DNA from: Tribonema minus
Taxonomy: Eukaryota; Sar; Xanthophyceae; Tribonematales; Tribonemataceae
DNA: 64,000 bases
NCBI GenBank assembly: GCA_017506865.1
Contig: JAFCMP010000346.1
Location: 682,001 to 746,000 of the forward strand
Reading direction: 5' to 3'
The translations under genes and the position numbers were made by a program. Below the pieces are notes generated by a model. It saw only the letters and a program-made list of their open reading frames with translations. It was not told the DNA's origin and made no database searches. Shown here one piece after another: positions 9,518 through 55,304 of this stretch; within the stretch, counting starts at the first letter, position 1, and each line of letters begins with the position of its first letter.

Positions 9518-12500
9518 ATGGTGGAGCCACTTGATGCAATGGTGGATTCATCAGCGGCCCCCGAGGAAGCCGCGGAGTTTCCTGCTGCAGACCAGCAGAC
9601 AGGCAACGATGTCGCTGCTGCCAAGCGAGATGTTAGCGCTGGCGATGCCTTGGCGTCATCAGCAGCCAACGGCATGCCAGAGCCCATGCAGGAATCAACG
9701 GAGCCACCACCCTCCTGCACGGAGTGCGAGGACCAACACGCTGAGCTCACTTGCCTGACATGCGAGGAGCATTACTGCAGGCCCTGCTGGGACAGCTTGC
9801 ATAGGAGAGGCGCTCGCAAAGAGCATAGGACTCAGGCTTTGCTGGGAGCCTTAATGCCAGCTCCTGCCACCCTGCCAGAGCCCAGCTTGGCTCCAACAGC
9901 TGCTGCAGCCGAAGTTGACGACGATGACATGCAAGAACGTGCCATTGCAGAGGGTGCGGACGACAGCAAGGCTGCAGCAGCTGTTGCAGAACCAGAACCT
10001 GTAAGCGACGACGAAGCTGATGGCGATGGAGCCAGAGCGCATCAGAAGCTTTCGGGACTGGTAGAGGCTTGCAGGTACATTCCCTTGCGGTTGACGCCGG
10101 AGGAGAGGCAGCTGCTGCACTTGCTGGAAAGCGCATTGAACGTCAGCGAATACACAGGTACGCATGGCAGCTGATTATATGTGTGCATATGATTGGAGTG
10201 TTTTTTGACATTTTTTGACAACATGAGGTGCTGCCTCTTTGAGGTGATGCGGTGAATGCCAACACTTCGATCACACGATGCCGTTGCCTTGACTTCAACC
10301 CAAAAAACTTTGCAACTGTGCAGGCAGGCAACTGCTGTACTTGCTGAAAAGAGATGCAGTCAGTGTCTAATCACTTTATGATGCCCACAAGTAATATCAG
10401 GACACCGGCTGCCTTCCTTGCGATTGTGCAGACGACAGGCATGTACTCAGCTCAGGGCAGCTGGGGTGGCCTGTGAATGCAACTGAGCCACACCACACTA
10501 TTCTGATCACTTTTGGCGGTGCGCTTTGTTGTGCTGTCAGTGTGTTTCGCTGGCACACATTATTGCTGGCGTGCCATTGCGCGCGCATGTTTTTTGACCT
10601 GCACCGAGCGCTGTGTCGTTGTCTCAGCGCTCAGATCACATAAGCATAACTGTCAGGTCGGCGGGGGTATACCAGAACCGTCCTCAGGAGGACGCAGATG
10701 CGGATTGCGTAGTGCACGATGCTCAGTTAACGCTGCAAGCAAAGCACGCTGCGGTGCTGGACATTAGATCACCATTGGTTCCTGAGGAGAGTTTGAACTG
10801 TAACGATGCTCTTGCATTGCTGCCATGATGCACCAGAACCGCCCTCAGGAGGTGTTGTCTTACACGTGCTTGCCATTGCGACAGCCCAGTAGTCCAAGTT
10901 CGCATGACGGTCATGAGGTACGCTGATAGTGAGCAAGCAACATTTCTTGAAGAGAAAGAGCTGCTGGCGCTGCTGCTGCTGCCCCTGCTGCGGACCACGG
11001 GGATTGAAGTTGTACGCCGCCGCAGCAGAAACGTTGCGTCGAAGGACAAGCAGCAGAACTAAGTGTCGGGCGAGTCCCCTTCTGTCATCATTGCACCGAC
11101 ATGGGGTGATGTCCGACCACCCTGTAACCGCATATTGTACGTGCGTGTGCACTGCATGGGCGCGCCGCCTCAGTGCTGCACCAGACTCTTGCTGTCACTG
11201 ACCTGCGTGTCATCAACAGGAGTCGGCACTATAATGGCATCAACCACAGCAATACTCCGTGTACATTAAAGTATACATTGTTATGCTTATGTGTGTGCGC
11301 CGCATGGCTGGTGCAGATCGCGTGGACGTGTTCACGCGCCGCAGCAAGCGCGCCGTGATAGAGGAGGAGCAGAGCGCCATGCTCACCACCATGAGCGGGC
11401 TGGCCATAGCGGGGCACGTATGCGGCGGCGAGCGGCTCGTGGGAGACACGCCTCTGGCGGACAACGCCGCGTTTTTCGCGCGCGCATTCGAGGTATGCGC
11501 AATCCTCCGCCTGCTGATGCGGTATGTATGTACACTATGCAGCGCCGTTGGAATCAAAAGGCGGACAACGCCGCGTTTTTTGCGCGCGCATTTGAGGTAC
11601 GCGCGCCGTCGCACTGAGCCGCTTTGTGCCATCAATGCACTTGAAGTATGCAGAGTAGGCAGCGCCGTCGGATCCAAAACGACCATTGGCGGACAACGCC
11701 GCATTTTTCGCGCGCGCATTCGAGGTACGTGCGCGTCGCGCTGTGCCACTTGCGCCTCCGACTGCCGATGATGTATGTAACTAGACTAACCAGCGCCGAC
11801 GGATCCGAAAGCGACCATTGGCGGACAACGCCGCGTTCTTTGCGCGCGCATTCGAGGTACGTGCGCCATTTCACTGTGCCACTTGTGCCATCGATGCACT
11901 CGAAGTATGTACAGGAAGCAGCGCCGTCGGATCCAATGCGCGTTTCACTGATCAAGTCGCAACAAGTGCTTGCAATGCTTTGCTGCACTTCAACTTTATT
12001 GGGTTCAGGTCACGACGTCATCGCTTATGCCTTCCTAGACGCGCACAGTCGTTGTTGCCTTCTGACGACACCTCTCTCAGCTGTGCGCGACGCGACAGAA
12101 CTGTGTCCATGTCAACTGAGCCCCGGCGCAGTTTAAGCTCAACCCATCACGTTCGAGGACGCAGCTGGGACTGTAGTGCATGTATTAGGTCTAGAATTAC
12201 TACGGGTATGCAGGCAGCAAGGCACCATCAAATAAACTATCACTGATCTAATGAGCCATTCATTTTCGCAGTATCAGGTGCCGACCACTGACGATGCCCC
12301 ACCTCCCCCCCCCCCCCCCACCCCACTCGCGCGCAAGCATGTCGGGCGGCGCTACAAGATTCGTCAGAACTGTGTCCATGTCCACTGAGCCCATGTGCAC
12401 TTCAACTTCAACTCTTCGCGCTCCAGGCGCTGATCGCTGACACCCCGCCCCACCTCACTCGCGCGCAGGTCGGCCGGCGCTACAAGATCTCCAACCCCGC

Positions 12501-15210
12501 CAAGTTGCGCGCGACGTACGGCAAGATGATGTTCCTCCTGCAGGACGCCGTCGCGCTCAGCACCAACCTCAAGTCGCGCCCCCCCGCGCTCGTCTCCCAA
12601 CTTCAAATGGTGACGCCCTTCCTGGAGGCGCGCGGCGCCGCGGCGCTGCTCAGCGATGCGCGCGTTCTCGCCGCGACTGCGGAGGTAACGGAGCGCAAAG
12701 TGGGGCGCGGCGGGCTCGCAGCAGCGCTCAGGGCCAAGGGCGAGGCGCGCGCGGCGCTCGTGCGCGCGCACGCGTCCCCAACGCTCAGCGCAGCAGATGT
12801 GGAGCGCGCGCTGGACTCCATCGCGGACGCCAACTCGTACCTGGAGGCGAACGTGCAGCCCGTCGCGGCGGCGCTGCGCTGCCTGCGTGCGCACTTCACA
12901 CGCTCGAAAGCGGAGGACCCGTACTCGCTGCGTCTCGTGGCCGCGCGCCACTCCTTCCGCAGCGGCAGTTACTATGGCGGCGGTTTCGGGGGGCTGGGTA
13001 TGTATGACGTGGGGGGGTATGGGGGGGGGGGGGACAGGGGGGGGGCGAAGCTGAACCACGACCACCCCACGCAGTACACGTTTGTGGAGCAGTCACTGCG
13101 GCTGTGGACGGAGGCCATGGCAGCCATGTACCGCCTGTGGATCGCTGCCGACGGTGAGTCAACTTCAAGCAAAAAACACTGCTGCAGTATACGACTTCAA
13201 GTAAATACTGCAGTTGTGCCGCCTGTGGATCTCTCCCGCTGGTGAGTGCTTGCTGATGTGTAGCGGGGGGTTAGGGGCGCTATCAGGAACATAACACAAC
13301 GAGCACTTTGCGTAGCATGTACGCAGTGATTGTGACCTCTTGAACGTAAGCATGGCAGCAGTATCTCAAAACCTGTACAGCTACAACGTAGCAACAGCTT
13401 GCAAAGCAGAGAGACTTGAGCAGGCACGTGCTGCTCTGGATCTGCTGCTGGTAGGCACAAACCTCACGTGGAAGCACCATGTTTTGATGCCTGCTGCTGC
13501 CCTGACCGCATTGGAGGCTTCACAAGCTTTCAGCCACAGTTGTAACCAAGTAGTATTGAGGGTTCATAGAGCACACTTGCAACTGGTGGCCTACCCACAC
13601 AGCCCCGTAAGCTCTGCCGTAGCTGCGCAGTGACACACACATGCTGCACCACACTCCTGCGTGCGCACTCGTGCACTGCGCGAAATGCCCCCCATCAACC
13701 TCTGCGCAGCAAACCGTCGTTTGTTGAATCGTGTAACCGTTTCACCCCCCCCCCCCCCCCCCCCCCCCGCCGCCATGCGCCACCTCAGCGGGCGCGCCAG
13801 CAACGTTTCTTGAAATTTTCAACCATTTTGCGCTGCCCCCCCCCCTCCCCGGAGACCACACACCTGTGCGTGCAATTGCGTACCCCGCACACCAATCCTC
13901 GCTGCCTCCACGCGATGCTCGCTCCTTCACCATCACATGAAACGTAGCCATGACTCGGCCCTGCCTAACCCCAACCCTAACCCCTCCGCGCGAGCGCACA
14001 GGCGACCTCCTCAGCGGGCGCGCGAGCTACCGCCTCTGCAACACGGGGCAGGGCCTCAACCGCGTGCAGAACTGCCCGAGCGTGAGCGCGGTCATGCGCT
14101 CCGTCCTGTCGCGCGTCCAGTCCGAGTGCGGCGCGTGGGTGGGGCTGAGCGTTGTGCACCTGGGCGACCGCGACGTCCCCAACGCGCTCGCCTTCATCGA
14201 CAAGTACGCGCAGATACCGCGCATCCTCGCGCCGATACGCGACGTTGTCGAGGCACTAGATCCCGTCACTGGCGAGTTTGCGCGCGGCGGCGGCGGCGGC
14301 AGCGGCGTGTATCCGGGGCTGCGCGAATATGTGGAGGAGCGCTGGGGGGGGTTCAGGGAGTTGAAGATGGCCATTCTCGCTGACTACTTCAAGCACGGCT
14401 TTGACGGCGACGGCGATGACGGTGAGCGCTGCTGCTGCTGCTGCTGCTGCTGGCGCTGCTGGCGGCGCCGGCATTGTGCATGTGTGTAGATGGTGGTGAA
14501 GGTTGCGGCTACGGTGTTTTCGATGACTTGCGAAGCATGGCAGTGGGCTGCTGTGAACCAAACTCACCTTAACCTTTAAGCGGTTTCACCCTAGAGGAGC
14601 TCTGAGCTGCGTCACCGTGCCACTCGTCATGATGACCATCTTCACTGCTTACCTCTGTCACGCGCCTACCTACCTGCACATTGACGCTGCAAGGGCGCAG
14701 GTGTAGCGATGGGGGGTTGGCTGCTTGCTGTGATGATGATCAACTCACTTGAAACCCAAGCCAGAGGCGCTGTCGGTCTGCAAGGTGGTTGAGCCTCATT
14801 GTCTTTGATTGGTTTGCTCGTAGAGCAGCACGGAATTTCATTGGCCGGGTGTTGTTGCGACATTGTACATACAGCTGACCACAGCGGCCGAGGTCACCCA
14901 CGGTCTCAAGCAGACACAACGAGTCTTGCGGCTTTTAAAAACATGTGTTGCTAGGAATGATTCCTGGAGGACTGGTACGCAAATCGTGTACCCTATAAGC
15001 AAGGCAGCCGCGCAGGATACAGCATGTTTGCTCGACCCCTGACCTTTGTATGCGCGCATTTGCTTTTTTTGGTTGCATAACGCAGGCGGTTCGTGCATCG
15101 ACGGGCGCCTGACGAGCACCTGGAACTGGTGCAGCAAGATTGGCAAGAAGGATTACTACCACATATTCATGCTCGCCGGCTTCCAAGGGTTTGACGGCGA
15201 CTGGCGGTGA
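9518..15210 (+). CDS. B-box zinc finger plus DUF2009 (UPF0652) protein
   Basis: Five exons: 9518-10157, 11317-11492, 12469-13153, 14002-14421, 15086-15210 (TGA), in phase to 681 residues. An acidic Ala-rich N terminus is followed by a B-box zinc finger at residues 67-103 (CTEC, CLTC, HYCRPC, then H95 and H103). The DUF2009 domain runs from about residue 180 to the end. Its landmarks include RYIPLRLTPEERQLL, LNVSEYTDRVDVF, VGRRYKISNPAKLRATYGKM, THE KLNHDHPTQYTFVEQSL block, YRLCNTGQGLNRVQNCPS and the tail SCIDGRLTSTWNWCSK with GFDGDW. DUF2009 (PF09418) is annotated in databases as a non-canonical E2-like C-terminal domain; its biochemical role is not established. Exon 3 holds a Gly-rich insert (about 12960-13050) with a long G run, which is prone to length change. 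Introns 2 and 3 carry copies of the adjoining exon edges. Length and order match full-length family members. Confidence 0.95.
11457..11870 (+). repeat. Exon-2 3' end plus 5' splice site copied three times into intron
   Basis: The last 36 coding bases of exon 2 (peptide ADNAAFFARAFE) and the donor are at 11457-11500. Three further copies start at 11561, 11689 and 11821, spaced about 104, 128 and 132 bp. Each keeps all 12 codons and is followed by a GTACGC or GTACGT donor. The five base differences from the exon are all third-position and synonymous. The sequence between copies is also partly repeated (GCGCCGTCGGATCC). Confidence 0.95.
12306..12400 (+). repeat. Decayed copy of the exon-3 5' edge upstream of the real exon
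   Basis: A sequence reading CACTCGCGCGCAAGCATGTC followed by GGGCGGCGCTACAAGAT resembles the true 3' splice site and first codons of exon 3 at 12455-12490 (CACTCGCGCGCAG, then GTCGGCCGGCGCTACAAGAT). The copy has lost the AG. A neighbouring segment (GAACTGTGTCCATGT) occurs both here and near 12098, so the duplication includes intron sequence. Confidence 0.8.
13745..13768 (+). repeat. Poly-C tract (24 C)
   Basis: An uninterrupted run of 24 C lies in intron 3 of the DUF2009 gene, about 230 bp before the acceptor. Similar runs are at 12305-12319, 16368-16400 (interrupted once by G) and 19020-19030. Confidence 0.95.
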
Positions 15211-17718
15211 CGCTCCTTCTTCAAGACAAACTTGAAGTTTACCCCGTCAATTTACATCAAATATATCAACTGTCCCTGAACATTGGTGTGGCCGGTCTTC
15301 TGGGCTTATGCGGCGCTTGCGTGCTGTGTGCTGACAAACTTGAAGCAGTTTACATCAAAATAGGTATGTCAACTCTCCTTGAAGATTCGTGTGGTAGTTG
15401 TCCTTGTTTATGCGGCGCTCATATTCTGTGTCAGCGCGCAATGATCCACGCAGCGTTGTGTTTGGCGGAGCAACCTCTAGCTGCTGCGTGGGGCATGAGG
15501 AAGTCTGCTCGTCGGCTCCTGTGATGCGTCGTCGGATCTCGGCTTGCGTCGCACTTGCGCACTTGACATTGCATTCAGAGTGGGCACAAAATAACGGATC
15601 ACATGCATGCCTTTGCTTTATGTTGTGCTTGCTGTGTCACTTTCTGGACTAGGTGGGGGCGACGCAGCACTTGCCAAACAGTCGGCACAGCGCGCACAAG
15701 CAATGCTGTGTCCCATGCGGCCATGTGATGACAAATATGGAGCACGTCTGTGCAATGGCTGCCTCTTGTGTGGAAGCATTGTGATGACAGTGGTGGGGTC
15801 TAAATGGCCACTACCGTAGCTCGCCCCTTTCTCAACACCCCCCTGAACCCCCAATCCGTCAGATGTCAGCTAAACAAGCTCCGCTTTAGGGTTAGGGTTA
15901 GCGTGTCAAGTCTCCTGGTCACTGGACAGCTTTGCTCACCATGACTGCAGTAAGCTCGTGCTGCGTGTTTGCCTGTATTAGAGACTCTCTATTTGGGAGT
16001 GGTTTGTTGCTGTATTTACGTTGACGCATGGCCGAAAAGAGATAGGCTAAACCAAACCCTAACCCCACAGGGGTTGATAGCTATTCAATATGCCATTGCA
16101 CTCACGAGGTGTCAGATACTATGCACAGCATGGCAAACAGCAGCAACATGTTGCCAACGTTGCAACAAGATGCCAACACTGGCACATCAAGACACACGCA
16201 TGGAACACCTCGAACACACGTCATCAATTAATGGCGGTACGTGATAAGCGCACAAACCGACCGTCGCTCTTCTGCCTTGAAGATTGCAGGCACGCGAGCG
16301 CAGCATCGGAACAATTGCATAAGCTGCCAGACATGAAGAACACAGAACAGAACCCGAACACTGAAATCCCCCCCCCCGCCCCCCCCCCCCCCCCCCCCCC
16401 GTTGCCACATGTGGTTGCCCACTGCTCTTGCGCGAAGTGTGAATTGCAAGGGCAGAAGGAGGGGGTGCCTCTGATCTGCTGAGCAATGCTTTCCAATCAA
16501 GAGGGGTCGCCGGCGCGCAGAGAGAGGAAGGCTCGCCCGACACACGGACACACACACTGAAGACGCCTTCACGGCTGCCCGTTGAGCGCTGCTGCTGCTG
16601 CTGCTGCTGCTGAACTTCAACTGTTGCTCGCGCAGCAAGCGCGCGGCGCTGAACTTCAACGCGTCGCTAGTAGCAGGACCTGCCATCACTCTCACATGTG
16701 AAGTTTGACAGTGCGCCCTCCCTTCCTTTTTGAGTACTGTCGAAGCGTATAGACACCAAGAGTAAAGCGACCCCCAGGCGGCAGAGTGCGTGCACGTCGA
16801 GCGTGTGTTTGCGCGTAGTTGAAGTTGCTGCTGGGCGTTGGAACGTTGAAGTTACTGCCTGTGGCTCTAGTATGTAGCGGCCTAGGCGGGTCTTGTGCTG
16901 TTTCTGAAGGCGGACAAGCCCGTGACCCATGCGCTCACGTCAGCCTGCAGCGCGGGAGTGGGGGGATAGCAGTTGAAGTTGAAAACGTGAAGGTGACCAG
17001 GGCATCCGAGTAGAGTAAGATTTGGGATGCCTATGACATGTTTACGCGCCACAGCATTCAAGTCACCATGATGCACTCAAGCTGCTGAGCATGGCGCGCC
17101 TGGTCATCTGGAGGTTCGAGCAGTACACCGTGTGTCTGATGAACCTGGCTGGCGTTTACTCGCAAGTACTACGTTGAGTAGCAATTTGACAACCAGGGTC
17201 AGCAGCAAACCCTACCCCGGCCCTACCCTTCATGCGCGCATGTATGTGCCTGTGAGAAATGGCAAGACAAGCCCAAACAAATCGTCCGCCTGCTGTGAAT
17301 CAGATTCTCGATGCGGTAGGTAGCAATTACATGCATAAGCAAGCCACGGCTTCGAGAGCCTCTTGGCCGTACCAGACAGTGCAAGGCTCTGAGCTATCAT
17401 TTGCGCCGCATTGACACAGCATTAAGGACCTGCCAATTGGTCGAACTTGAGATGTCAACTGCAGAGAGCACAGGCTCTGTTTCACCGACACATAGTATTG
17501 GAGCCAAATGCCAGGAGCCAGCCGGGGGACGAGAGAAGGGGCAGGTGGCGGCAGTCTGGGTGTGCACAATCACACGCAGAGTTACCTCTTCCAGACATGC
17601 AGCAAATCCTGCCTTGATTCAGGTAGCATGTGGGCACAGCTTAGGGCAAGGGTTGTGGCGTCACATGCTACTTGATGAGGCGTGCGCATGAGTTCACCAC
17701 GAGTTCACCGCAGGTTGA
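15211..17718. other. Convergent intergenic region, DUF2009 gene to GH26-A
   Basis: Both flanking genes end here, so it should hold two 3' ends. I see no convincing gene. Contents: a two-copy tandem duplication of about 100 bp at 15228-15430 (each with ACAAACTTGAAG and TTATGCGGCGCT), a TTAGGG doublet near 15887, a poly-C tract at 16368-16400, and a CTG-type run near 16587-16612. A short ATG-led ORF at 17091 (about 28 residues) has no recognisable family. Confidence 0.6.
16368..16400 (+). repeat. Poly-C tract interrupted by one G
   Basis: Ten C, one G, then 22 C, in the convergent intergenic region. Confidence 0.95.
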
Positions 17719-23700: not shown

Positions 23701-26700
23701 AGATGCATCAAGTGCTCCAACGCTGAAGCACTGTCTTGACATCATGTAATGCTGCAGATCAAAGAAGCACGCACATCCGCATGCGCCATCATGCAGTGCG
23801 TCAAATGCAAGATCAGGGCAATCGTCTTCATGCATCACAACCAGAGGACAAGCCACGAGCTGTCACGAGGGCCCTCACCCCAACCCTAACCTCGACCGTT
23901 ACAGGCATGGTCATGCAGCGATGCAACAGAAAGTGAATGATGATCTGAACACTTTTGGAGCGGTCGGCATGCCGGCCGCCCTTGGTGACCAGCAAGCTAT
24001 TGAGTACTAGACACAATACGCGCAACGCTGAACGCACGTTCGCACCAGTTGCCATGCAAGCTGTATGAATAAACCATCACACGGTGCCTCGTGTCACGCA
24101 AAGTACCCACGCTCATTGCTGCGCACTTCAAGTGCCAAGTTCAATTCAGTTGCAGCAGCGCTCACCTGCACTGGCATGTACATGAGTATAGAGTCCAAGT
24201 CGACTCTGTAGGCGGACTCGCGCTGGTAGTAGTTCAAGTGTCAAGTTCAACTCAGGTGCAGCAGCGCTCACCTGCACTGGCATGTACATGAGTATAGAGT
24301 CCAAGTCGACTTTGTAGGCGGTCTCGCGCTGGTAGTAGTTCTTGGCGGGCCCTGGCAGTACGCCAACCGTCGTGCTGCGGCGGATCTTGCTGTAGTCAAC
24401 CTCAAACACGCTGCGGCAATAACAGAAAAACAACTTTATGCATTCAATGGTGCTCTCTGGTGGTTGAGGTCAAACTCCCTGCACGATACAAAGAGTGTGC
24501 GTTCCGACGATCATGGACTTTTGACTGTGGAAGCAGTGCAAAGCGCGCCTTCACGATGTGATGTGCATGCGCATGATTGGTGCAGCACGGTGAGAGGCCC
24601 CATGGACCGTGGACGCAGCTGGTCGCTTCTGACTGTCCATACCGATACAAAGTGTGCACGAAACAAAGTGTGCATCTTGATGATCGTCACCTTGTGAATG
24701 TGAAAACAGTGCAAAGCACCTTCACGAGAAGGTTGGCATGCGCATGATTGATTGGTGCAGCACGGTGACATGCATCACACACTGTGGTCACTCCTGACCG
24801 TCCATATCGCGACATGCTTTGTGAGCAGGCCACCCATATAATTTACTTCTTTGGAGTGGCGCTGTGTGAATGCCGTAGTGAACCTACGGTGTGGGGTTCA
24901 TCGTGCAGGGGGCAGAGGTCATGTCGCAGGTGTTGATTGTGCACACGTGATTACGCCTGATATGGTTGAGACGTACATAGAAGTACAGCGGCTATCATCA
25001 GAATGCATGAACTGACGGTGTGGGGTTCAGCGTTCAGGGGGCAGACGTCGTGTCGCAGGAGCGAGCATTGTGCATACACAATCTCACGGTGTATGTACCT
25101 TTCAGCAAATATGCAAAGTAATAAATCCATCATCCTTGGTGTGTACGAACTCACGGTGTGGGATCCAGCGTGCAGGGGGCAGAGGTCGTGTCGCAGGAGC
25201 GGCCGGTGTTGATCGTGCACACATGATTACACATGATTGTGCCTGACGTGCCGAGTACACATTACTTTCATGATTGCCAGTACATGAACTTACGGCGTGG
25301 GATCCAGCGTGCAGGGGGCAGAGGTCGTGTCGCAGGAGCGGCCGGTGTTGATAATGCCTGCGGCGCAGCAGTTGGACGCGCCCAGCGGGTCGTAGCCGCA
25401 GTTCGCCTGGCCGCAGTAGATGCAGCCGTTGTTGCAGCACTGGCTGCCGTTCTGCGGTGTGCGGGTGTGCGATGGGCAGCAGCGCTCAGGCGACGTACAG
25501 CAGTGCTCAGGCAATGAGTGCAGCAGCGCTCAGGCAGTGCGCAGCAGTGCTCGGGTGATGGGCATCAGCGCTCAGGCGATGGGCAGCAGTGCTCAGGTGA
25601 TGGGCAGCAGCACTCAGGCAACATGGTGCAGCAGAGCTGAGGCAATAAACGCAGCAGTGATAAGCGAGGCAGCGATGCGCAGCAACGCTCAGGGGATGCG
25701 CAGCAGTGCTCAGGCAAGCACGAGGCAATCGGGTCGCAGAACTTGAACTTGGTGGACGCGTGCTCCTTGACAGATCATGACGGGCTTGACAGGGGGCTGC
25801 ACAGGTGTGCCGACTGTCACTCGGAAGCAACAAGGGCGCTGCCCAGCAAACAGTTCAGACATGCGTGCACGACAGAGGATACACGTGCACAGCAGCAGCC
25901 CGTGAATGACGAGCTACGATTAGATCCACAGGTGCTAAGTACAACACAGGTTTGACGCTCACCGGGTGTGCGATCCCTGACAGGCAGTACGGGTCGGCTG
26001 CAGCGATGAGCAACCGTAGACAAAGGGAAGAGAGAACGCGTTTGATAAGGGGTCAACTAATGCAGTGATGAGGGGACAATGCGTCCCAAGCAGCGGTGCG
26101 TAATTGGTTTGTGAGTCATTGTACGTGAGCAAGGTTCCAGACCCTAGCCCTATCACTAGACTGCATACCAGCAGCAATACCTGCGAAATCAACCCTGCCA
26201 GCCCTTCCCAAGCTAGCTTAGCTCAAATAAATTTGAGCAGTGACCATGTGCGATTTAGTGGATTCGAACTACATCTCCCCATTGTGTGACCCTACAAAGT
26301 CCGAAGTGAATGAAATGGGAAAAATCAGACGGTTGTGTAGGAACCGTCTTGTTATTTGCAGCCTTTCATCATGTTTCGTTTGTGGTTGTGCCTCTAAGTT
26401 GAACGCATTCAGGATTGAGAACAGGTCATCAGGATTGGGAACAGCCTTACTGCACTCAATGCATCACACATGGCCCCCATGACGATGCCTTGCGTGTGCT
26501 GGAATATACAGCATAGGGTATGAGCTAGTATGTATGGGATAATTCACTGGTGCTTGGACAGCGCTGCAGCCAGCCTGTACCAATCATAGCCAGCAAGGCT
26601 GGTGCCCCCTTGACACTATTATGATGATACATGGCTGGAGGGCATGAGGGGTTGTCAATCAAGAGCGAGTGGGCTCCATGAATAATGCAATGCTCCGAAG

Positions 26701-39766: not shown

Positions 39767-42700
39767 CTAGACCTCGACTGGTACATCTTGGCGGCGGCGG
39801 ACATCTCTGTTCTTCCTCTGCACATAACGCTTGTTGCCCTTGCCAGGCTTGGAGGGGGGCTTGATGGGAGTGGTCTTGCTCTTGAACTTATCGTAGCCGT
39901 TGTGGAACGCCTTGATCTCCGCCTGCGCTCGCACAGCAGCACCGCGTGCCCAAACCGCTTTAGCACTTCAGTGAAATGAGGCAACCGTTGGGCAGCGCTG
40001 CTGCTGCTGCTGCGCGTGGTTGGCTGTCGTAAAGCGCTGCCGTGAGATGCCCGCAGCATGAAGTGAACGCAATCACATGACTGAAAGGTGTTGATCTCCG
40101 CCTGCGCTCGCACAGCAGCACCGCGTGACATATCCGATTTTAGCGCTCCAATAAAATGAGGCAACTGCTGATGGAGCAGCGCTTGAAAGGCCTTGATCTC
40201 CGCCTGCGCTAGCACAGCAGCACCGCGTGACATATCCGCTTTAGCACACTTCAGCAAATCAAGGCAACTGTTGAGCAGTGCTGCTACTGCTGCTGCTGCT
40301 GCGCACACTTGGCCATCGCAGAGCACTGCTGCGAGGTACCCGTAGCTGTGAACGCCGTCACACGACTGACAAGCAGGTGACGTGCTGGTGCTCCAGCCTC
40401 TGATAGCATCTGATTGCATCGCATTGTCTTGTCCAGTGTCAGTCAAGCAGCCGTGGGGCGTTGACAGCGCTGACTGTCACACAGTATAAACCTCGTTTCT
40501 GCCAACCGTTTGCAATGTTGTAGTTGCTGTGGTGCACCCATGCCTGGTGTACTACAATCTCACGATGGTTGACTACTTGAAGTCTGTCATTGGTTGTATG
40601 CATGTAAGTCTGGAGGTGCCCCGCTGTCTGCCTCCTGTAGGCAGCCACAGAGCATTTGCCGGACAAAGACTGGTTTGGCTAACCCTTCACAAAAAAACTG
40701 TACCAATCGATACAGTGGGTGATGGCATTTCTTCCGGAGTAAGATGCTTTGTTTGTTTGCTTAATGCAGCTGACCCCCCCTCTAACTTCATGTTTGCGCC
40801 TCTACTGGATTCAGCCATCCCAACAACTACATGGTTGGGTCTTACACTGTAGGGCTAACCTTAGTCTTCAGGTCCCAGTCGCGCTTATTCTGGGGCTTGT
40901 CCTCAAAAAACCTGCAGCAGAAAACGCAGTCATACACTTTATCCACTCGGCTAGCAGCATGAGAGGAAGCGCAATTTTGTGATGCACGATTCATCAAGGC
41001 ATGCACCTCACCATGCAGGACTCTGACCATGCAAAGCAAAGGCATATGCTCAACAGCAGCATTGTACAGTGTACATGATGGAACAAGGTAAGTTATACTT
41101 CAACTGTGGAGCGTACACGATGGAACAAGATAAGTTATATTGCAGGAGCTGGGCTGCAGGCACTTGTGCCAAGCTCAGAGTGCCATGCTGCACCTGAGGC
41201 TCCAATTATGGGACCTACCAGTTCATGCTGCTGCTGTGAGTACTGTACAGTACAGTGTACATGCTGTACAGTACAGTGTACATGATGGGTACAGTGTACA
41301 TGATAGTAGTGCAGTAGCTGGACTGCACCTGAGGCCCAACTATGGCACCTACCAATTCATGATGCTAGTTAGGATGATGCTATGCATGTAGTCTCAAAGG
41401 CGGTCCTGCCTGAAGCAAGACAACTGCCCGCTTCCTTGAGATGCAAAACACAACTTCAGAGTTTAATGAAAAAAAAAGCACGGAGGCAATTGCACCGTAT
41501 CACTGGACAGTGTTCACACACGACGCTTACCAGTTGAGGTGGTGACCTTGGGAAAGGTGCCGATGAAAGCATTCCAATGACATAACAGTACCCCTGATAC
41601 GGAGGCAATTGCACTGTAATGACATAACAGTACTTGTGATACGGAGGCAACTGCACTATATCACTGGACAGTTCACACAACACACTTGCCAGTTGAAGGT
41701 GGTGACCTTGGGGAAGGTGCCGATGAGAGCATTCCAGGCCCTAAAGTGAACTGTAACTACCGCCTTCAGCGGAAAAACAAGAGCTGATGACAACATGCCA
41801 TTACTCGCGATAGGGCAATTGCACCATATCACTAGACTGTTCACACACACGACACGTACCAGTTGAAGGTGGTGACCTTGGGGAAGGTGCCGATGAGAGC
41901 ATCCCAGGCCTCTGTGATCCACTGAACCTTGCTGCCAGGGCCGCCGCAGTTGCCAGTGCTGCCCATTTCCGCAACCCCAATGCCCTTGGGCTTCTTCTTG
42001 GTCATTGCTACAAACTGCGGTCAGAGCGACACAAAAGGGAGGGCAACGACAGGTCAGCTGCTGGATCACAGCAGACCATGAAATGTACAACACCCAAACG
42101 AGACTGATCGAAAGCGGCGTCTGAAACATGCGTCGGGCTCTGCTACTGCGGTATATCATGCCTGCAATATGCATGTGGAACGCTGTTGTCGGCATTTCCA
42201 TCGTCACGGCTGCTGATGCGGCAGGTGCAAAGGGTGGAGGCGGTATGGTACAGTCCACCATGAACTGCTGTACCGTGAACTGCAAGCAGCACATATGAGT
42301 GCGCACCTGTGCAGTGTACTGAGTGCACGTGTACCGAGTACAACCAGGAACGTATGGTTTCATCCAAATGGACGTAGTTGGCCAACTGCTGACACCTGCG
42401 GGCAGCAGCTCCTTGCTGACTTCAACCCTACAGTAAGGCCTCAAAGCACATTAGCACCTCCTTGCTAACTTCAACCCTATAGTTGAAGTTAAAGCCTCAG
42501 CACCTCCATGCTAACTTCAACCCTACAGTAAGGGCTCGGAGCACATCGCGCCTCGAGTATACACCATACCCCACATTTCCTGCAAGACGTGGTCGTGACA
42601 TTGTCAACATTGACAAGACACACTCTCAAGCACCGCTTTGAGTATTGAGTGAAGAAACAAGATTCAAAGTAACTAAGAGGTCCGGATGACGGCTGTTACG

Positions 42701-45700
42701 GTTGCCTTTACCTGATCGTACCACGGCCTGAAAAGCTTTGTGAAGGACATGTTGGAGCCGGTGAAGTCCTTGGCACCGCACAGGTTGTACGTCGAGACCA
42801 TCACCTGCACAACATACATCACATCGCACCGCAGGCAAAGTTGCCGAAATGTCAGCACATCAGTATGCTTCACAAGAGGTACACTGTTCCTTGGCGCCGC
42901 ACAGGTTGTGAGCTGAGACCATCACCTGCACAACATACGTCACATCGCACCGCAAACGAAGTTGCTGACACGTCAGCACGTCAGTGTATATCAAAAGACC
43001 TTTGGGAGAAAGAGTACTCCATTGAGATTGGATGAAAATTCGTGCACTTGCATCGGGCGTTTCATGCAGCTGGCAGCGCCTGCCACTGCAAAGGCGCAGA
43101 TGCAGCTGCGTATTGGCATGTATGGCGCATCAAACTGAAAAAAAGAGATATAAAGCACACACACTTGACGGCTGGCTTTGCACGTTTTCCCAGTCGCGTG
43201 GCATTGTACGGCGGCAGAGGCTCAGAGGCTGAGTGAGCAACACGCCATCGCGCAGAAAATGGTCGCTGCAACACTGTGATTGGAGGTTGAGCGCTGCAAA
43301 AAGCGTCTGCCTCTCAGGTTGAGCGCTGCAACACGCGTCTGCAGAAAGGCTGAGCGCTGCAACACACGCACTTGCTCAGAGGCTGAATGAGTAAATACGC
43401 CATGCGCACAGGCCGACCGCTGCAACACACTGGTTGACGTGAGCGCTGCAACACGCATCTGCTCAGAGGTTGAGCGCCGCAACACATGCACGTGTTCAGA
43501 GGCTGAGCGCTGCAACACGCTGATTGACGGCTGAGCGCTGCAAGAAAGCTCAGAGGTTGAGCGCTGCAACGCGCTGATTGACTGTTGAGCGCTGCCATAA
43601 ACTCAAGAGGTTGAGCGCTGCAACGCGTCTGCTCAGAGGTTGAGGGTTGCAACACGCGTCTCTCGTAGTGCGCGCTGTATGAGAGCCCCACGGCGTTGGC
43701 ACAAGCGCTGGGCAGCGCGTAGATGCACCTGCGCAAGTCGAGTCTCAAGTCGAGTCTCGAGAGGCAGCTGGCCGATTTTGCCACACTGGCCGTGCCCCTG
43801 CAACATGTGCACACATGCGGGTGTGCCGATCGATGGGTGCTCGGACAAAGACGTCGTCGAACCCTAACCCTAACCCTAAGCAAAAAAGAGGAAGTTCCAG
43901 ATAATTCCTGTGCGTGCTCACCTCATCCACGTAATTCTCAAGGCCCTTGTAGAAGTCCGCCGCAGGCGTGTCGTAACGCTCCGTTAGGCTGCCGGGCTTG
44001 AGGCCGTTGCGCATGGCGTAGCTGCACACATACACGCACACAACACACCACGACCGTTAAGCAAGTGTGACACACACGTCCTTGACGAGGCTGAAGGCAA
44101 AAACCAGCACTGATGGTAGTCTAGTAGTCAGGTGCAAGCTGGGACGAGAGCATGCATGGGGTGCGCATGAAGACAAATCTTTTCATCGGTTGCTGTAGCT
44201 AGTTGTTCTTCACGCTCACGCATCATGTGTTGGCTGGCAGAACCAGTACTGCTCCCGCCTGCACGCGCCTGACGCTTGCTTGCCGGCCTACTACATCGCG
44301 CGTGGTAGTGGTGCTCGCTGAGGCCTCTTCACTGAGTTCTGGCTCTTGCGAAATTTTCAGCAAAGGAATTTTCAGCAAAGACTCGTCGAAAACTCGGACT
44401 TCTCTAGTCGCGCAAGTTTCTAATTTTTGCTCTAGAGTATGCGGACACCCTATAATGTGAAGTGTCAAAAAACGCCATGCAGCATCAACTACTGTGGGGT
44501 TCGCGCAAAATCGTGTGAATGAACAGAGGTCGCTGCTGCGCAGCCACTAGACGCGTGTGTCCTATCCGCTCATCGGTCAAAGGATTGCGAGTATGGCTAG
44601 GTCGATCGTGTGCGCAGTCGACTGGTACTATCAGGCGGCTGCTTCGTGTGCGTTCTCTCTCTCAAGAAAAACCTTCAGGCTGATTGCATGCAGCCGTGTG
44701 TGAGCGGGAAGGGAGTCAGGGTGCACAAGACAGCATGACGTTCCACAATAGAGCTGACAATCGCTTGCTGCATCTCGCGCGCAAACAAGACGGTGCAGGC
44801 CTGCGTTGGCTCACACGCGTGAGTCACGGTACCAAGGAGCGACTGAATGCACGGAGCGACTGAATGCACACCCATGCCGCCCACTGCACACGCCAACCTC
44901 GCGTCAGCCGTACTGGATAGCCCTGCCAACAGTACTACAACCTCCCCTATGCTTACATGGCACCAGATTGCGCTCGTGTCACGCGCACGAGGCTTTTCTG
45001 GAGTGCACGCCCGGCGCTTGTTTCTAAAGAAGCTCCAGAGTGTTTCACACCTTAGACGACGGTCCGTCGTGACGGAGTCGAGCAGCACGACAGCCAATCT
45101 GACCAAGGTGTAATGACGGAGTCGTAGAGACGACAGACTTTGGTGTGACCGTGCGCGACGGTGCTGACAACGGCAACAATATATCGAGCAGCGGCAGGTC
45201 GACGGAGTCGTGCAGACGACAGAGATCCCAAGCTCCGACAGCAACAGACCGTCGCAAACCGTCGACTGAGTTGAACATGTTGTTGAAGTTAGCTATGGCA
45301 CCGTGAAGCACTTTCTCGCATAGCGCGGTCACTTCGTAGCCAACGCCTTGCACGAGCAGCGTTGCAACGAGCAGCGTTGCAACAAAACTATCAGTTTTTC
45401 GGTACATTTAGTTCTCCGGAACCGACAGTTCTTCGGTGAAACCTGTTCTTCAGAACGTTCCTGATGCGAAACCACCAAGAAAGAGCAGGGCACTTGCAGC
45501 GCTACTTCGCATGCTGCAGCCCCGGGCCTGGCGGTTGATAGCATACGGCACAGCAGGCTCTGGCACCCACCAACCTTGAGTGTCTGTACTACTGCGGAAC
45601 CCCAAAACAAACAGCAGCTCAGCTCCCCATAGGTAGCGTAAGGTATTTGGGTAGGTGCCTTTGGCCACAGCTGCTGCCGCAACGCGCTCGCATATAGTTG

Positions 45701-48700
45701 AAGTGAAATCAGCACGGCATCAGGTAGCGCTTCTTGAAGGGAAGTGGTTGCACGACGGTGCACGACGGAACGGAACGTGCTGGCGGCAACCATGCGCAAC
45801 AGACGTCGTGCAGACGACGGAAAGTGCAGCATCCTTGTACGACGGTGTCGTGCAGATGACAGCAAGTGCGGCACTCATATGCGACACTGGCGCGACAGAG
45901 TTTTCACTAGGGCTGTCGCGACGGACCGTCGCGACTCCGTCGTCTACGTTGCTCCGTCGTCTAATGTGTGGAGTGTTTGATCACAAAGAAGAGTGCTCTC
46001 CCACTCTAAAAACAGAAATAGAGACGATTTCTAGAAAAAGCAAGATGAACGGCCGAGTCGAGACTCGTGCTTCTCTAGAAATTGATTTCTAGTTCGAAAA
46101 TAGAGAACTCGGAAACCCTCTATTGTGCTTCCCGTAGGAATTGAACTCGCGTTCAAGGCCTTATCAGCCCCACAAGTGCGCGGCTTAAACCAATCTGTGT
46201 CAGACTTACCCATCGCTAACCCTAAACCCAAAATCAGAGGCGCCTGCTTGCATAAAGGTCAAAGCATAGGTCAAAGCATACCCCGGACCAAATCAAAAAC
46301 TGCTGTGGTGCCTGTCTGGTCAAATTCCAAACTCTGAAAGTCAATCATTGTTGAGATTGCGCAGAGTCCATGGCACTGAGAATGCGCACCTGAACTGGAA
46401 CTTGAAGTCCGCCTTCGTCTTCCGCAGCACGTTCACCACGTGCTTGTAGGCCTGCTTGAAGTTGGCCATGGTGTTGCCCGTGTTGGGCGCGTAAACGCAC
46501 CATTTGTACCAGCTGCCTGCTCACGGAGGAAGGGGGGTAGGTACGTATTGAGGATTGATGGCAGAGGGTATGTATCGGTGTGAGTACCAGCTCCTTGCGT
46601 ACGAGCAGAAAAAAGACACGAGTTCCGTTTGAGCGCAAATGACTGAAGACCCTCCATCGCGATCGCTCCAAGTCAACGCGTCAGAAGGCTACATCACGGT
46701 GTACACCACACTGCAGCGTTGCATGCAGGCGCTACACGAGCAGATCCCGTCGGCACCCGAAACGCTTTTGTGCGGCTCACTGATCAACCTTCACCCAACA
46801 CGGAGATCCATGCCAGAGGAGGGTGTGTGAGGCTGGCAGCATTGCCCTTGCACGGCGATCGCAACACTTCATCAGGCACTTCATCAGGAGCATAATCAAG
46901 ACATCACATCATTGACTATAATGAAATAACAACTGTCCATCAGAGCCGAGTCCATTTTGTAGACTTTAAAGACAACATCAAGTGCGTTCATAAACACATC
47001 CCTTCGTTCAACTGAAGTAGAAGCCACAACATAAAGTACACTCCACCCCCCTGTGAACCAGGAAAAGCAGCTTTTAGACCTGAAAACCAGACTCCAAGTG
47101 CAGCTCACCATTGAATTCGTGAAGCAGCCTGAGTGTAACCTGTTCCCCTGCCTCCCTGGCCTTTTTCCCAAACACCCTCAAGCGCTTGTCATACTTCTTC
47201 TTCAGGATGTTTCTGCGCGACACGAGACAGGGGCAAGGCACATGGGTGACATTCTGAGTGTGCAGAGAAGCTCGCGCGCAATTAGTCAACCCTAACCCTA
47301 ACCCTAGTTTTGAGCAGACGACTCTGGCATAGCATTACATCAGGTCAGCGTGCTACTGCTTCTGGAGGCATGTCAGATTTGGCCAGCAAATAATTTATGG
47401 GATGAGACGGTCGACCCCCCCCCCCCCCCCCCCCCCTCGCCCTCCTTCCCCCCCCGCAAAGACGATTAACTTTGCATGTATGAATAGAATTGACTTCCAA
47501 GCTTTTTCACGACAATACATGAGAATTGGAGCTAGTGCTGTGCACCTATGTAGGGCCAGGGCATGAATGGGTAAGCTAGTCAAGGAGAAGCGCAACAAGC
47601 TGGGGGGAGGTAGCAAACGAGGCACACAAAGCTCGTTCATTCTCCAGCAAACGGCTTTTTACACAACAGCGCAGCACATTTGTGCAAAAACCAGGGGTCA
47701 AATACGCAGGCACACAGTGTCTTTTGGCCAGACTGTGGCGTCCTGAAACCACGCTTTCAGTCACACGCAGCCGAGAAGCACCTGACATCACCACTGTCCT
47801 CCACAGCCAGGCCTGGTGAAGTTGTTTGTTGGTGAAATTGTTGGTGTAGTTCATGGTTGCACAATGGGCCTTTCAGCATGCGTGGTGATAACCGAACCTT
47901 GACCCGGATGCAGGACGCGTGAGGGCTTACTCCAAGATAAACTTTGGCATGCTTGCAAAAGTGAGGTACACTCACGGAAAGGTGTCTCCAAACTCGATCA
48001 CCAGTTGGACCTTCTTGTTGGCCTTGAAGTAGGGCCGAAGCATGTTGAAGTTCAGATTCTGCAGTGAGGGAAAGCAGCAGCAGCAGCAGCAGCACCTGCA
48101 ATCAGAACGGATGACTTTTGTGTAGAGGCAGGAAAAATGGCTCACAAGGTACAATCAACTATACATAGTGGTACCATCATCCATGAATTTGACAGTCCAT
48201 ACTCAGGTGTATGGTATTGCATTCCCTTATGAGCTCTCATTTGCGCACACGATCAGTCGCTGCTCATCACCACAGATGCATTCTCGCTGCCTCAGTGCTC
48301 AGCTCACCCGCACGTCCACGTACAGCAGGATCGAGTCAAACTTGACGTCGTACGCCTTCTGCCGCTCCTTGTAGCTCATCTTGGGGCCCGGCAACACGCC
48401 AATGTCGGTCGCGCGCCGCACGTTGACGTCTGCAACCGGGGGATACAGCATTAGGATCGTGACTAGAGTTAGGGATGCTTTTTGGTATCAGCGTCTCGCT
48501 TGAGCTGACATCAGGCACGCAGTCCAATGTCCGACAGGGGGGTGCAGCATGAGGAGCAGGATCAGGGTTGAAGGTTCTCATTGGATATCAGCGGCTCAGA
48601 GGAGCTGACATTAGGCACGCATGACACATATATACATACATACCACTGACATTGCGGCAGATACATGTGAGAGTGGCAGTGGGGCGACATTTCGCTGCAC

Positions 48701-51598
48701 CACCATGGTGCAGGCTCTCTCACTCTGGCCTAAGTACTATAGCAACTTCCTTTTTGTAGTTCAATCCAACTTCAACAGCATTTTGCCTGCTGCACCCCAG
48801 TGTCAGCAAACGTGTGCCGCTGATGACGTCTGTCCTCTGATGGGCGGAGGCAGCTGCGGTAAGCACGCCACCAGGCCCGAGGTCTGAGCGCTGCTGTTAC
48901 ACCCCAGCGCTGCTGTTAGTGCACACCAGTGCTCTGCATACCGCTGCCTGAGCGCTGCTGCTAGTGCACACCAGTGCTCCGCATACCGCAGCCAGAGCGC
49001 TCAGCCAGTGCTCAGCAGCAGGTGCCGCTGACCTCCGCTCTGTGCCGCTACCCTGTAGGTGCCACAGCGCTCAGCGGTTGCGACATGCGACAGCGCTCAG
49101 AAAATTGAGCGCTGAGCACTGACACCAGCGTGCGAGCGGCGCTTAGCAGCGAGTGCTGAGCGCGGGCACTGCGGTGCCACAGCGCCCAGCAAGGCATCCA
49201 GCAGCTTATCCGACATGAGATTCCAGTGGATCAGCTGGTTAGACCAGGTCCATGTGATGCGAACAACAGAGCCTGCCCAAAACACCCTGCAGTACTTGGA
49301 CGATTTGCACCAGCGACACTGCGAGTCCTGACAGTAGCAAACGCTGCATTCGATGCGTGCAGCAAAGCGTGCGAGTTTGGCGCCAGCCACTGCCGCAGAC
49401 CCTACCGACACACCCAGTTGCGGAAATGAATCAAAATGTTCTAGAGCGCTGGGTGACAAGGTGTGGGTACTCAGCCGACATATTGAATGGTATAGCAGTA
49501 TTGCGGTAGGCCGTCATACTGAATGTTATAGCAGTATTGGGGTTTTGAGCACATCACAGTTTTGAGCGCAACGCGTGGACACTCACGCTTCTTGAGGGCA
49601 CGCTCCACCTCACCCGCTGGCACAGGCGCAGCGGCAACCGCGCAGGGCGCGTCATCTACTGAGCACTGCCTCCCACTGTTGAGCACTGCGCTTGGTCGCA
49701 ACAGCAACATTACAGTTACATGTACGCTTTCGAGCACCCCACGTGGACACTCACGCTTCTTGAGGGCACGCTCCACCTCACCCGCTGGCGCAGGCGCAGC
49801 GGCGACGGCGCAGGGCGCGTCATCTACTGAGCACTGCCTCCCGCTGTTGAGCACTGCGCTCGTGCAGCACGCCTCTGCGCCGCCCGGCAGGGCACTGCAG
49901 CAGCACAATTAGCGGGAAAGGTATGTTGTGAGGTCGGTAGGTATGCTTGACCTAAACCTAGCCCTGACTATGGACCAGACATGGGGGCGCTACGTGCGGC
50001 AATGCAGCTAGTGCATAAAATGTTGGCGAGCACTGTGCTTGGGACGCGGGGTAGCTGCAGCGGTGCTGGCGGCACAGCAAGTGAGAGTGGCGTGGAGCTG
50101 CAAAAATGATCGTGACAAACACACACACACAGAGTGCACCACATGAGCCTAAGTTTGACCCTAACCCCTACTCTTAACCTGAACCAAGAACACAAACCTA
50201 AGAACAGCCTGCAACTCGACCAGAGCGGCCAGCAACATGGGGGCAGCAGAGCCCAATTTGAGCACAGTACTGAACTGCACAAATACATGTATAGCAGTCC
50301 GTGTGTGTGAGTGTGTGCCAGCGGTGAGCTCGAGTCACACCATATTGTGCAAAAGTCTACCACAAGTGGCACCATAGCCTTGAACTCTGTCGTAAAAGAG
50401 ACCAGTTACTGGGCCGCACCGGCTACCCTGCATTCTAATTCAAATCAACAGCAACTACACTACACATTCTTTCACGGGTATGGCGCTGAGGAATGCATGT
50501 ATGTACAGAAGTCTGCAATGAGGTCTGGGGGGCAGCTCAGTGTCTCTGTGAGCTGGAAGTACGACTTACATAATGCTTGTTTGCGTTGCTAGTATCTTCG
50601 GAGGTTGTTACACCCTGATTGCCGCCAGTGGCTCGTTCAATTTTCACATTTCATGCTGAATATAAATCGCACCTAGCGACCACTGTTAATGAAACGCGAC
50701 GACCGTATGTTGGCTGCCTTCTATGTAGTGCGACTACCATAAGGGTGTCGGTCACCAATGGTGCCAATGCGTCACACAGATTGAGCACTGCATCTTCAGC
50801 TCCTTACCCAGAACCCTTCCTCAAATGCATCGCAAACAGGCCAATGAGTCAATTCGTAGTGATGCGAGCACCAGATTCGCATAGTGAACACAACTTGCGT
50901 TTGTCCGGAGGTCTGGTAGTGCTTGTACGGCCGTTGTATCATGCCAGAACCTGATGGAACTATGCAGTCAGTGCGTGCGAACACAAATGACTCACTTGCA
51001 GCCCGGTCCTCCGCATGTGGTGCATTCCAACGGACAGCATGCTGTTTGATCCTGAAGAGTCGTTGTAAAGCAGCCGATGCGTTGGCAGCAGGCGCAGCAC
51101 CACAGCGATCGCCCGGCAGCGCAGGAGGCGAGGACAAACACACAACCACAGCCGGTGTAAGTGCGACGGCCAGAGGCTGCCAACAAACATAAGCGGCGGC
51201 GAACTGCTCTCTGGGAGATGCCCGACCACTGCAGCGCCAGTTATACTTTTGATTGACAAAGCCTCCATACACAGCAATGTGACCGGAGCCCTCTGCGAGT
51301 CTCTTGCAACGCCACATGGAACAGTAATGTTGTGAGGCACCTCAGGAATGAAGCCTCGCCGTTCACGGCTCGTTCAGCTTGCGATACCTTCACACGACAG
51401 GCAGATGCGCTGAGGTATCCTGCACAAACCATCAGCATCTTCCCGCATTATGCAAGTAGTACTTGCAAGCATGCGCCACAGTGAGGAGTCGCTCCTTGCC
51501 TTGTTCAGGATGCCCTGATCACATGTTGGGTCCGCAGCACCTGTACCACCCAGAAGGCAGCAGCCGGCAAGCGCCGCGGCAGCTTGTGCCCAGCGCAT
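39767..51598 (-). CDS. GH26-B: secreted GH26-like glycosidase with one Cys-rich module
   Basis: Twelve exons: 51598-51500, 51051-50996, 49894-49755, 48429-48308, 48058-47976, 47212-47109, 46516-46390, 44021-43922, 42804-42712, 42014-41860, 40911-40860, 39922-39767 (TAG). All are in phase; 428 residues. Residues 1-21 are a signal peptide (MRWAQAAAALAGCCLLGGTGA). One Cys module follows, from DPTCDQGILN through CCPLECTTCGGPGC to APC, then a short charged linker instead of a Pro/Thr linker. The GH26-like domain is at about 100-377: RLLHEFNG (acid/base E199), SWYKW, ENYVDE, VSTYNLCG, AEMGSTG (nucleophile E324) and WFFEDK. The last exon adds a Lys/Arg-rich tail of 51 residues not seen in GH26-A. 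Intron 1 begins GC. The GH26-A intron between GGDK and PQW is absent here. An alternative donor 25 bp inside exon 3 gives the same phase. The final exon is the least certain join. Confidence 0.88.
39901..40375 (-). repeat. 5' edge of last GH26-B exon with its acceptor, three copies
   Basis: The true exon start (GCGAGCGCAG then GCGGAGATCAAGGC) is at 39922. Copies of acceptor plus first codons occur at about 40090-40140 and 40190-40235, each with GCGGAGATCAA after an intact CAG. The upstream intron sequence (GCGGTGCTGCTGTGCGAGC) is repeated too. Together they form three units of roughly 100-175 bp. Confidence 0.9.
41531..41920 (-). repeat. 3' end of GH26-B exon plus donor, three copies
   Basis: The exon end at 41860 (GGTCACCACCTTCAACTG then GTACGT) is copied at about 41691-41745 and 41531-41578. 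The first copy is followed by GCAAGT and the second by GTAAGC. The third copy has lost one base in the coding part. Spacing is about 160-170 bp. Confidence 0.92.
42770..42985 (-). repeat. 5' edge of GH26-B exon with acceptor, duplicated upstream
   Basis: The acceptor and first codons of exon 42804-42712 (TTGTGCAG then GTGATGGTCTC) recur at about 42890-42985, where the reading includes CTCACAACCTGTGCGG. About 95-125 bp is duplicated, including the flanking intron. Confidence 0.9.
43285..43665. repeat. Tandem array on a GTTGAGCGCTGCAACACGCG unit
   Basis: About thirteen imperfect copies of 26-33 bp, each with a GAGCGCTGCAA core, lie in the GH26-B intron between exons 44021-43922 and 42804-42712. 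It contains no supported coding sequence. Confidence 0.92.
43859..43881 (-). repeat. Short interstitial telomere-like repeat
   Basis: Three CCCTAA units, about 40 bp from the donor of exon 44021-43922 and close to the end of the 43285-43665 array. Confidence 0.85.
45052..45964. mobile_element. MITE-like element with TTAGACGACGG terminal inverted repeats
   Basis: The left end reads TTAGACGACGGTCCGTCGTG and the right end, reverse-complemented, begins TTAGACGACGGAGCAACG. GACGGAGTCG and ACGACGG motifs recur in both subterminal regions. Length is about 0.91 kb. I see no transposase ORF, which fits a non-autonomous element, and no clear target-site duplication. It sits in the GH26-B intron between exons 46516-46390 and 44021-43922. 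Confidence 0.7.
46118..46212 (-). other. Possible tRNA-derived (SINE-like) fragment
   Basis: Minus strand: an A-box-like TGGTTTAAGCCG lies about 40 bp before a B-box-like GAGTTCAATTCC, the order and spacing of internal tRNA promoters. Acceptor and T stems do not pair, so a functional tRNA is unlikely. It lies in a GH26-B intron just outside the MITE-like element. Confidence 0.35.
47289..47307 (-). repeat. Short interstitial telomere-like repeat
   Basis: Three CCCTAA units in the GH26-B intron just upstream of exon 47212-47109. Confidence 0.85.
47415..47436 (+). repeat. Poly-C tract (22 C)
   Basis: A run of 22 C, which is poly-G on the GH26-B sense strand, followed by a CT-rich stretch. It lies in the intron between exons 48058-47976 and 47212-47109. 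Confidence 0.95.
48890..49090. repeat. Degenerate GAGCGCTGCTG tandem repeats
   Basis: Repeated GAGCGCTGCTG, GTGCACACCAGTGCTC and GCATACCGC units of about 55-60 bp lie in the GH26-B intron between exons 49894-49755 and 48429-48308. They share the core found at 25475-25726 and 43285-43665. Confidence 0.75.
49585..49894 (-). repeat. GH26-B Cys-module exon 3' part plus donor duplicated
   Basis: The exon end at 49755 is copied about 168 bp further into the intron, at about 49586-49692. The copy covers SAVLNSGRQCSVDDAPC through the charged linker and keeps an intact GTGAGT donor. The reading frame is open in the copy. The 5' part of the exon, including the first CC pair, is not included. Confidence 0.93.
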
Positions 51599-55255: not shown

Positions 55256-55304
55256 GTTTTTTTCGTTGGTGACATTTTTGTGCTGATGCGGATCCGGCAG
55301 AGAA

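Follow-up and report, generated by a model that had tools for sequence, protein, structure and literature searches.

Intron lengthening is usually attributed to transposons and random indels. In tandem exon duplication and in mutually exclusive exons, whole exons are copied into the neighbouring intron, while introners are dispersed element families that act on introns across a genome. The pattern described here resembles the former in placing exon sequence in the neighbouring intron, but only one edge of the exon, about 20-95 bp, is copied; it would resemble the latter in acting on introns across the genome, but each copy is local and comes from its own exon. In plants, patch or paired-nick models explain small tandem duplications by fill-in and end joining, and we know of no report of a concentration on exon-intron junctions under these models.

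A tandem duplication across an intron-exon boundary led to an intron gain in the potato RdRp gene (Ma, Lan and Niu 2016, PMC4974935). It copied the 3' splice site and part of the exon in one event, from which an RNA-supported new intron and additional exonic sequence arose. The tandem genomic duplication (AGGT) model of intron gain (PMC3443670) and the near intron pairs of Drosophila (PMC2891723) also involve local tandem duplications that multiply splice signals; there, an exonic piece is duplicated, with the new intron situated between its copies. Small tandem duplications arise as well at breaks with 3' overhangs, through Pol alpha-primase/CST fill-in and end joining, a process (PMC8355091) that is not known to concentrate on exon-intron junctions. 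Both single splice-junction duplications (PMC4974935) and intron gain by duplication (PMC3443670, PMC2891723) have been published already. Unlike the potato event, the duplications studied here affect some thirty junctions, give no sign of a new intron and leave copies that decay. Unlike in the AGGT model, part of what is duplicated is existing intron, and the units at donor edges show no match to those at acceptor edges. The sequence-only reading of this DNA knew of no named system that would fit: we found none for the genome-wide pattern, although the published potato case covers a single boundary-crossing duplication. No report with exon edges as the main duplication site of a genome was found in a literature coverage outside which most subscription papers lie, and the pattern had no match in the passages considered of PMC4938644, PMC8469720 and PMC6410037.

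Copied exon edges in three genes of the window

The window is a stretch of 64,000 nucleotides (C346:682001-746000) of the Tribonema minus genome (158 Mb, 554 contigs). The sequence-only reading had proposed duplications at eight exon borders in three genes, and self-BLAST of the window confirmed a local direct copy at all eight, five of them checked base by base and three (41860, 42804 and 39922) resting on self-BLAST and alignments (Table 1).

Table 1. Exons and their copied edges in the window (/ marks the exon-intron border)
Feature	Position	Strand	Evidence
DUF2009 exon 2, donor GT at 11493	11317..11492	+	PF09418 positions 30-91, gene finder, sequence
Three extra copies of exon-2 3' edge and donor	11560..11936	+	TRF, self-BLAST, sequence
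DUF2009 exon 3, Pfam-supported part, acceptor AG 12467-12468	12469..12942	+	PF09418 positions 89-245, sequence
Partial copy of exon-3 5' edge, intron 2	12311..12360	+	self-BLAST against 12443-12488, 84%; sequence
Second repeat pair, intron 2 (12093-12158 and 12362-12427)	12093..12427	+	self-BLAST, 79%
GH26-A exon, donor edge 24272	24272..24410	-	gene finder, sequence
Two-copy tandem duplication over 24272 donor edge	24127..24341	-	period 106, 95% identity
GH26-A exon, Cys-rich, donor edge 25294	25294..25451	-	gene finder, sequence
Array over 25294 donor edge: exon copy and three intronic	24879..25352	-	self-BLAST offsets 129, 267, 406
GH26-B exon, acceptor edge 39922	39803..39922	-	gene finder, coding look; no homology support
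Array over 39922 acceptor edge, two copies	39903..40369	-	offsets 179, 281
GH26-B exon, donor edge 41860	41860..42014	-	tblastn with GH26 open frames L025, L029; gene finder
Array over 41860 donor edge, two copies	41480..41910	-	self-BLAST, alignment; offsets 161, 329
GH26-B exon, acceptor edge 42804	42712..42804	-	gene finder, coding look; no homology support
Duplication over 42804 acceptor edge, one copy	42767..42998	-	period 121, 84%
GH26-B exon, donor edge 49755 (C/GTGAGT)	49755..49894	-	sequence, coding look; no homology support
Duplication over 49755 donor edge, one copy	49560..49860	-	offset 168, 93% over 133 bp

In the DUF2009 gene, the array behind exon 2 has a period of 132 and 2.9 copies according to TRF, and 11456-11806 aligns with 11560-11934 in self-BLAST. 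Its exon-derived blocks lie at about 11560-11596, 11688-11724 and 11820-11856, and the intronic copies of the donor edge end in GAG/GTACGC or GAG/GTACGT at 11596, 11724 and 11856. Copies of the 5' edges are present at all three such borders, and the acceptor AG of the DUF2009 exon 3 copy is no longer exact (gcgcaagcatGTCGG versus gcgcagGTCGG). The start of this exon is set at 12427 by the gene finder. A B-box zinc finger (PF22586, E 8e-9; 9500-10171, + strand) shares an open frame with the first DUF2009 exon.

Tblastn searches that used this genome's own GH26 open frames as queries back the GH26 identity of the other two genes. A Pfam scan of 20 window ORFs gave no GH26 call, and a genome-wide GH26 search, which returned 26 matches (19 in open frames of 299-554 aa), had none within the window. 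The donor edge at 41860 was placed at 41849-41851 by the gene finder, whose first run gave the 49755 exon as 49782-49894 and whose stricter run gave no exon there. At the 24272 duplication, the sole one with a clean, readable junction, the two copies overlap by 3 bp. Introner-like elements would form one family inserted at many unrelated loci; a 401-base query over this array, the one array queried, matched itself alone among the genome matches listed, and such counts are lower bounds. GH26-like pieces at 60504-60647 and 62857-62955 (- strand, about 60504-62955; tblastn) point to a third GH26 gene within the window.

Other repeats were also present. The window holds a self-palindromic inverted repeat at 52855-53586 (72%), another formed by 55300-55890 with 56013-56597 (arms of about 600 bp, 82%) and a 66-bp tandem repeat at 2522-2702 (2.8 copies, 92%). 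Longer near-identical tandem duplications, with offsets of 428 and 535 and identities of 97% and 95%, occur at 7722-10000 and 4565-5604 of locus L039 (contig C223). The genome further contains 92 matches to the light-harvesting family PF00504, as a photosynthetic eukaryote probably would.

Placement of duplications relative to exon edges

Besides the window and the 26 GH26 loci, we read eight loci fetched for Pfam matches over several exons before any look at repeats (five from kinesin and three from mitochondrial carrier matches), ten arbitrary 10-kb stretches from ten contigs, none on the window's contig, and two intron-rich loci of DUF2009 paralogues (C93 and C541). The eight loci have many spread-out exons, a choice that favours long introns. 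Exons were predicted with a home-made, self-trained gene finder that assumes GT-AG introns. At the chosen setting, it recovered 13 out of 14 listed window exon intervals (one split in two, two fused), a score that predates the final rerun with more loci and includes two intervals taken from the finder's own first run rather than from homology. Predicted exons that coincide with copies or lie inside arrays were dropped by hand: L048 5046-5101, L050 4836-4883, L051 4290-4403 and 1791-1927 and, later than these four (after the second-model circular shift), L052 953-1013.

Two null models were used. In constrained placement, clusters of tandem duplications received random positions on the condition that they overlap no exon by more than 100 bp and cover none entirely. 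The plain circular shift allows clusters over whole exons, a coverage that never occurs in the eight loci or the window. Clusters and pairs of one gene or array are not independent, and the pooled totals of both nulls omit the four clusters that the GH26 loci (88 kb) contain.

The eight loci were full of arrays, most of them on an exon edge. Under constrained placement, 24 out of 33 clusters were on an edge against 6.5 expected (4.7 and 7.8 with stricter and laxer limits). With the 36 Pfam-supported exons only, a test that bypasses the hand-dropping, 21 out of 33 were on an edge against 4.4 expected, and none of 50,000 draws gave more than 14. The window had six of its 19 clusters on an edge (1.4 expected, p 0.002); the 49755 and DUF2009 exon 3 borders are absent from these six because the gene finder misses both edges. 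In the arbitrary stretches the count was 12 out of 26 against 3.0 expected, five of the 26 clusters exceeding in reality the limit set by this null. The pooled total was 42 out of 79 against 11.1. Chance as the source was, thus, rejected by constrained placement, including with Pfam-supported exons alone, and the edge excess is real in the sample read.

The circular shift also gave an excess in the eight loci (24 out of 33 against 13.5, reached in none of 1000 shifts) and in the pooled set (24.1 expected, again 0 out of 1000). For the window it gave six against 3.5-3.6 (p 0.09-0.11), and for the arbitrary stretches 9 out of 26 against 6.5 (p 0.126) with the first gene models and 12 out of 26 against 7.3 (p 0.017) with the second. 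The predicted excess over splice junctions relative to random placement is, therefore, upheld by constrained placement in the sample and falls short of significance for the window by circular shift. By the latter null, clusters of at least 85% identity were on an edge in 10 out of 18 cases in the eight loci (2.9 expected) and in 3 out of 11 in the arbitrary stretches (2.8 expected, no excess); at 90% or more, the eight loci had 3 out of 9 against 1.2 (p 0.12). Counted per edge, circular shift gave 26 against 18.6 in the eight loci (p 0.03), 6 against 4.8 in the window (p 0.35) and 16 against 12.8 in the arbitrary stretches (p 0.2). Per-base coverage was flat, at 22-30%, across the first 400 bp of intron and dropped only further in.

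Clusters numbered 6.0 per 10 kb in the eight loci, 3.1 in the window, 2.6 in the arbitrary stretches, 0.56 in the DUF2009 paralogue loci and 0.46 in the GH26 loci. They covered 46 out of 318 predicted splice edges and one out of 51 open-frame ends in the 26 GH26 loci. Open-frame ends are also coding borders and served as a control against a plain conservation effect; this control is weakened because seven of the 26 GH26 frames fall below 240 aa and could each be one exon of a split gene, and the sole covered end belongs to one of these seven. None of the 23 predicted edges in the DUF2009 paralogue loci was covered, and C93 had one duplication on a Pfam-supported exon; these loci are nearly without duplications, so not every intron-rich gene is affected. 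The proposal of a genome-wide process accordingly gains from the edge excess at other loci and loses from these two; 'genome-wide' is an extrapolation, because the total read was about 0.3 Mb, ~0.2% of the 158-Mb genome.

An improbable explanation is that ordinary short tandem duplication falls uniformly along the genome and that the excess reflects slower decay on the exon side or an artefact of the gene finder. An exon copy does stay recognisable longer because it is compared with a conserved partner, and this explanation agrees with the clusters in 9 out of 10 arbitrary stretches (many with offsets of 80-180 bp), the weak circular-shift result for the window and the lack of excess in some high-identity subsets. 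In our simulations, duplications fell uniformly, exons were conserved and introns were neutral; in further variants, the intron parts decayed as much as tenfold faster or turnover was high. The simulated on-edge share was 24-32%, 23-29%, 26-36% and 21-26% in four sets, with a maximum of 36%, against observed shares of 73% in the eight loci, 53% overall and 32% in the window (the last by the gene finder's edges). One-sided decay with ascertainment was, thus, rejected as the cause of the excess; its persistence with Pfam-supported exons and the scarcely covered GH26 open-frame ends also argue against uniform duplication.

Structure, age order and fate of the copies

The anatomy of the copies was analysed in the eight loci, the window and the C93 locus. 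The typical unit comprises roughly 20-95 bp of exon and the splice site, placed in the adjacent intron at an offset of 73-280 bp to the nearest copy. At 33 edges, 18 donor and 15 acceptor, copies included 15 bp of exon or more; the two kinds of edge are affected alike. Among the nearest copies, 13 out of 32 were contiguous and head-to-tail, and nine of the 19 spaced ones retained similarity in the spacer (no call for the other 10), the arrangement of short tandem duplications. Introns are lengthened as a direct consequence of the arrays, as had been claimed. Copies differ from their own exon by 0-22%, on several contigs and mostly in an order of divergence, which makes an assembly artefact, a general risk at any repeat, a far-fetched explanation.

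Two or more copies were carried by 14 of the 33 edges, and in 13 of these 14 the nearest copy was more similar to the exon than the farthest one (less similar in one). Young pairs comprised 9 edge and 18 non-edge cases, old pairs 37 and 24, while in the simulations edge cases made up roughly a fifth to a quarter of young and old pairs alike, with a maximum of 28%. The higher share among older pairs fits longer survival or re-amplification, and preferential retention as well as preferential formation. Duplications might, thus, form evenly, those on edges being re-amplified by unequal exchange with the exon half undecayed and contractions that damage the exon purged. We consider this rather unlikely. 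The rise of the excess with age speaks for it, as do the multi-copy edges, more numerous than expected for independent rare events, and the position of the youngest copy next to the exon; a first, small simulation of such retention, in which each setting had two runs and each run few clusters, gave 22-50% on edge, short of the 73% observed.

Exon-derived parts diverged from the exon by 0.081 per site and intron-derived parts by 0.247, a difference more unequal than in equal-rate simulations. Between two intronic copies the values were 0.151 and 0.273, with the exon part lower in 21 out of 25 comparisons. The exon-derived divergences fit a frozen exon with neutrally drifting copies. The intron-derived parts outpace that neutral clock, perhaps because of low-complexity sequence.

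The lower divergence of exon-derived parts, also between intronic copies, could suggest that selection keeps the copies for splicing, as spare or decoy sites or exonic enhancer material, or for coding, although this exon/intron labelling favours well-kept copies. As for the claimed multiplication of splice sites, GT was present in 21 out of 30 donor copies and AG in 21 out of 26 acceptor copies, about the level expected from neutral decay. The nearest copies at 30 edges had 56 synonymous and 56 nonsynonymous differences, a synonymous fraction of 0.50 against a neutral-copy ceiling of 0.446; all 56 pairs had 99 and 120, with three gained stops (0.452 against 0.448). Only 3 out of 32 extensions were in frame and open, and 9 out of 32 were multiples of three. 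Coding or alternative-splicing use was, therefore, rejected, and maintenance by selection in any of these roles seems hardly probable. The copies drift roughly as neutral sequence, without clear coding constraint, and the suggested seeding of new exons receives no backing, given that splicing at the nearest copy would leave the reading frame unshifted and open at three of 32 edges.

New introns fared no better. In the Rogers model, an intron is born when an exonic AGGT segment is duplicated in tandem, which leaves direct repeats at intron ends, and the duplications could be relics of such births. In the eight loci, however, no donor-edge unit matches the next acceptor-edge unit (at least 48 bits, within 3000 bp), contrary to the model's prediction; the three repeats 600-3000 bp apart are far copies of one edge; and donor-edge copies include intron sequence past the donor. 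AGGT intron birth is, thus, contradicted for the eight-locus introns examined and is very improbable as an explanation. Six repeats of the distant class (600-3000 bp apart) also occur in the window.

Possible origin of the junction duplications and its meaning

Our preferred reading, to which we give a probability of about one half, is that recurrent head-to-tail duplication focused on exon-intron junctions builds introns outward. Stretches across the junction, with offsets of 73-280 bp, would be duplicated repeatedly at donor and acceptor edges. The splice site nearest the exon presumably remains the one used, so that extra copies would turn into intron and decay. Fresh events would land beside the exon and push older copies outward, and the intron would, therefore, grow from its edges. 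The events themselves may reflect repair of breaks or nicks by fill-in and end joining, to which the short overlap at the one clean junction points, and the junctions of many intron-rich genes may be hot spots for them, perhaps through DNA damage linked to transcription or splicing.

The introns of the loci read also contain scattered telomere-like words. Interstitial TTAGGG/CCCTAA words were found at 71 sites in about 219 kb (window and L038-L055), of which 67 lie in predicted introns, 39 reading TTAGGG and 28 reading CCCTAA in the sense direction; a decamer form was absent from the 88 kb of GH26 loci and the 18 kb of DUF2009 paralogue loci.

More tentatively, the junctions may themselves be hot spots where, in this lineage, DNA breaks and is re-duplicated in tandem in connection with transcription or splicing (through RNA-DNA hybrids or spliceosome stalling, for example), with introns accreting outward. 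This version is possible but doubtful. Under the hot-spot reading, the telomere-like words in the same introns would be further scars of break repair.

Copied exon edges can fool gene finders and RNA aligners. If the preferred reading is true, an edge-focused process would be a growth zone for introns, and genes would be flooded with surplus splice sites, which the splicing machinery would have to pass over. It would also tie splicing or transcription to genome instability, a link testable in a small genome.
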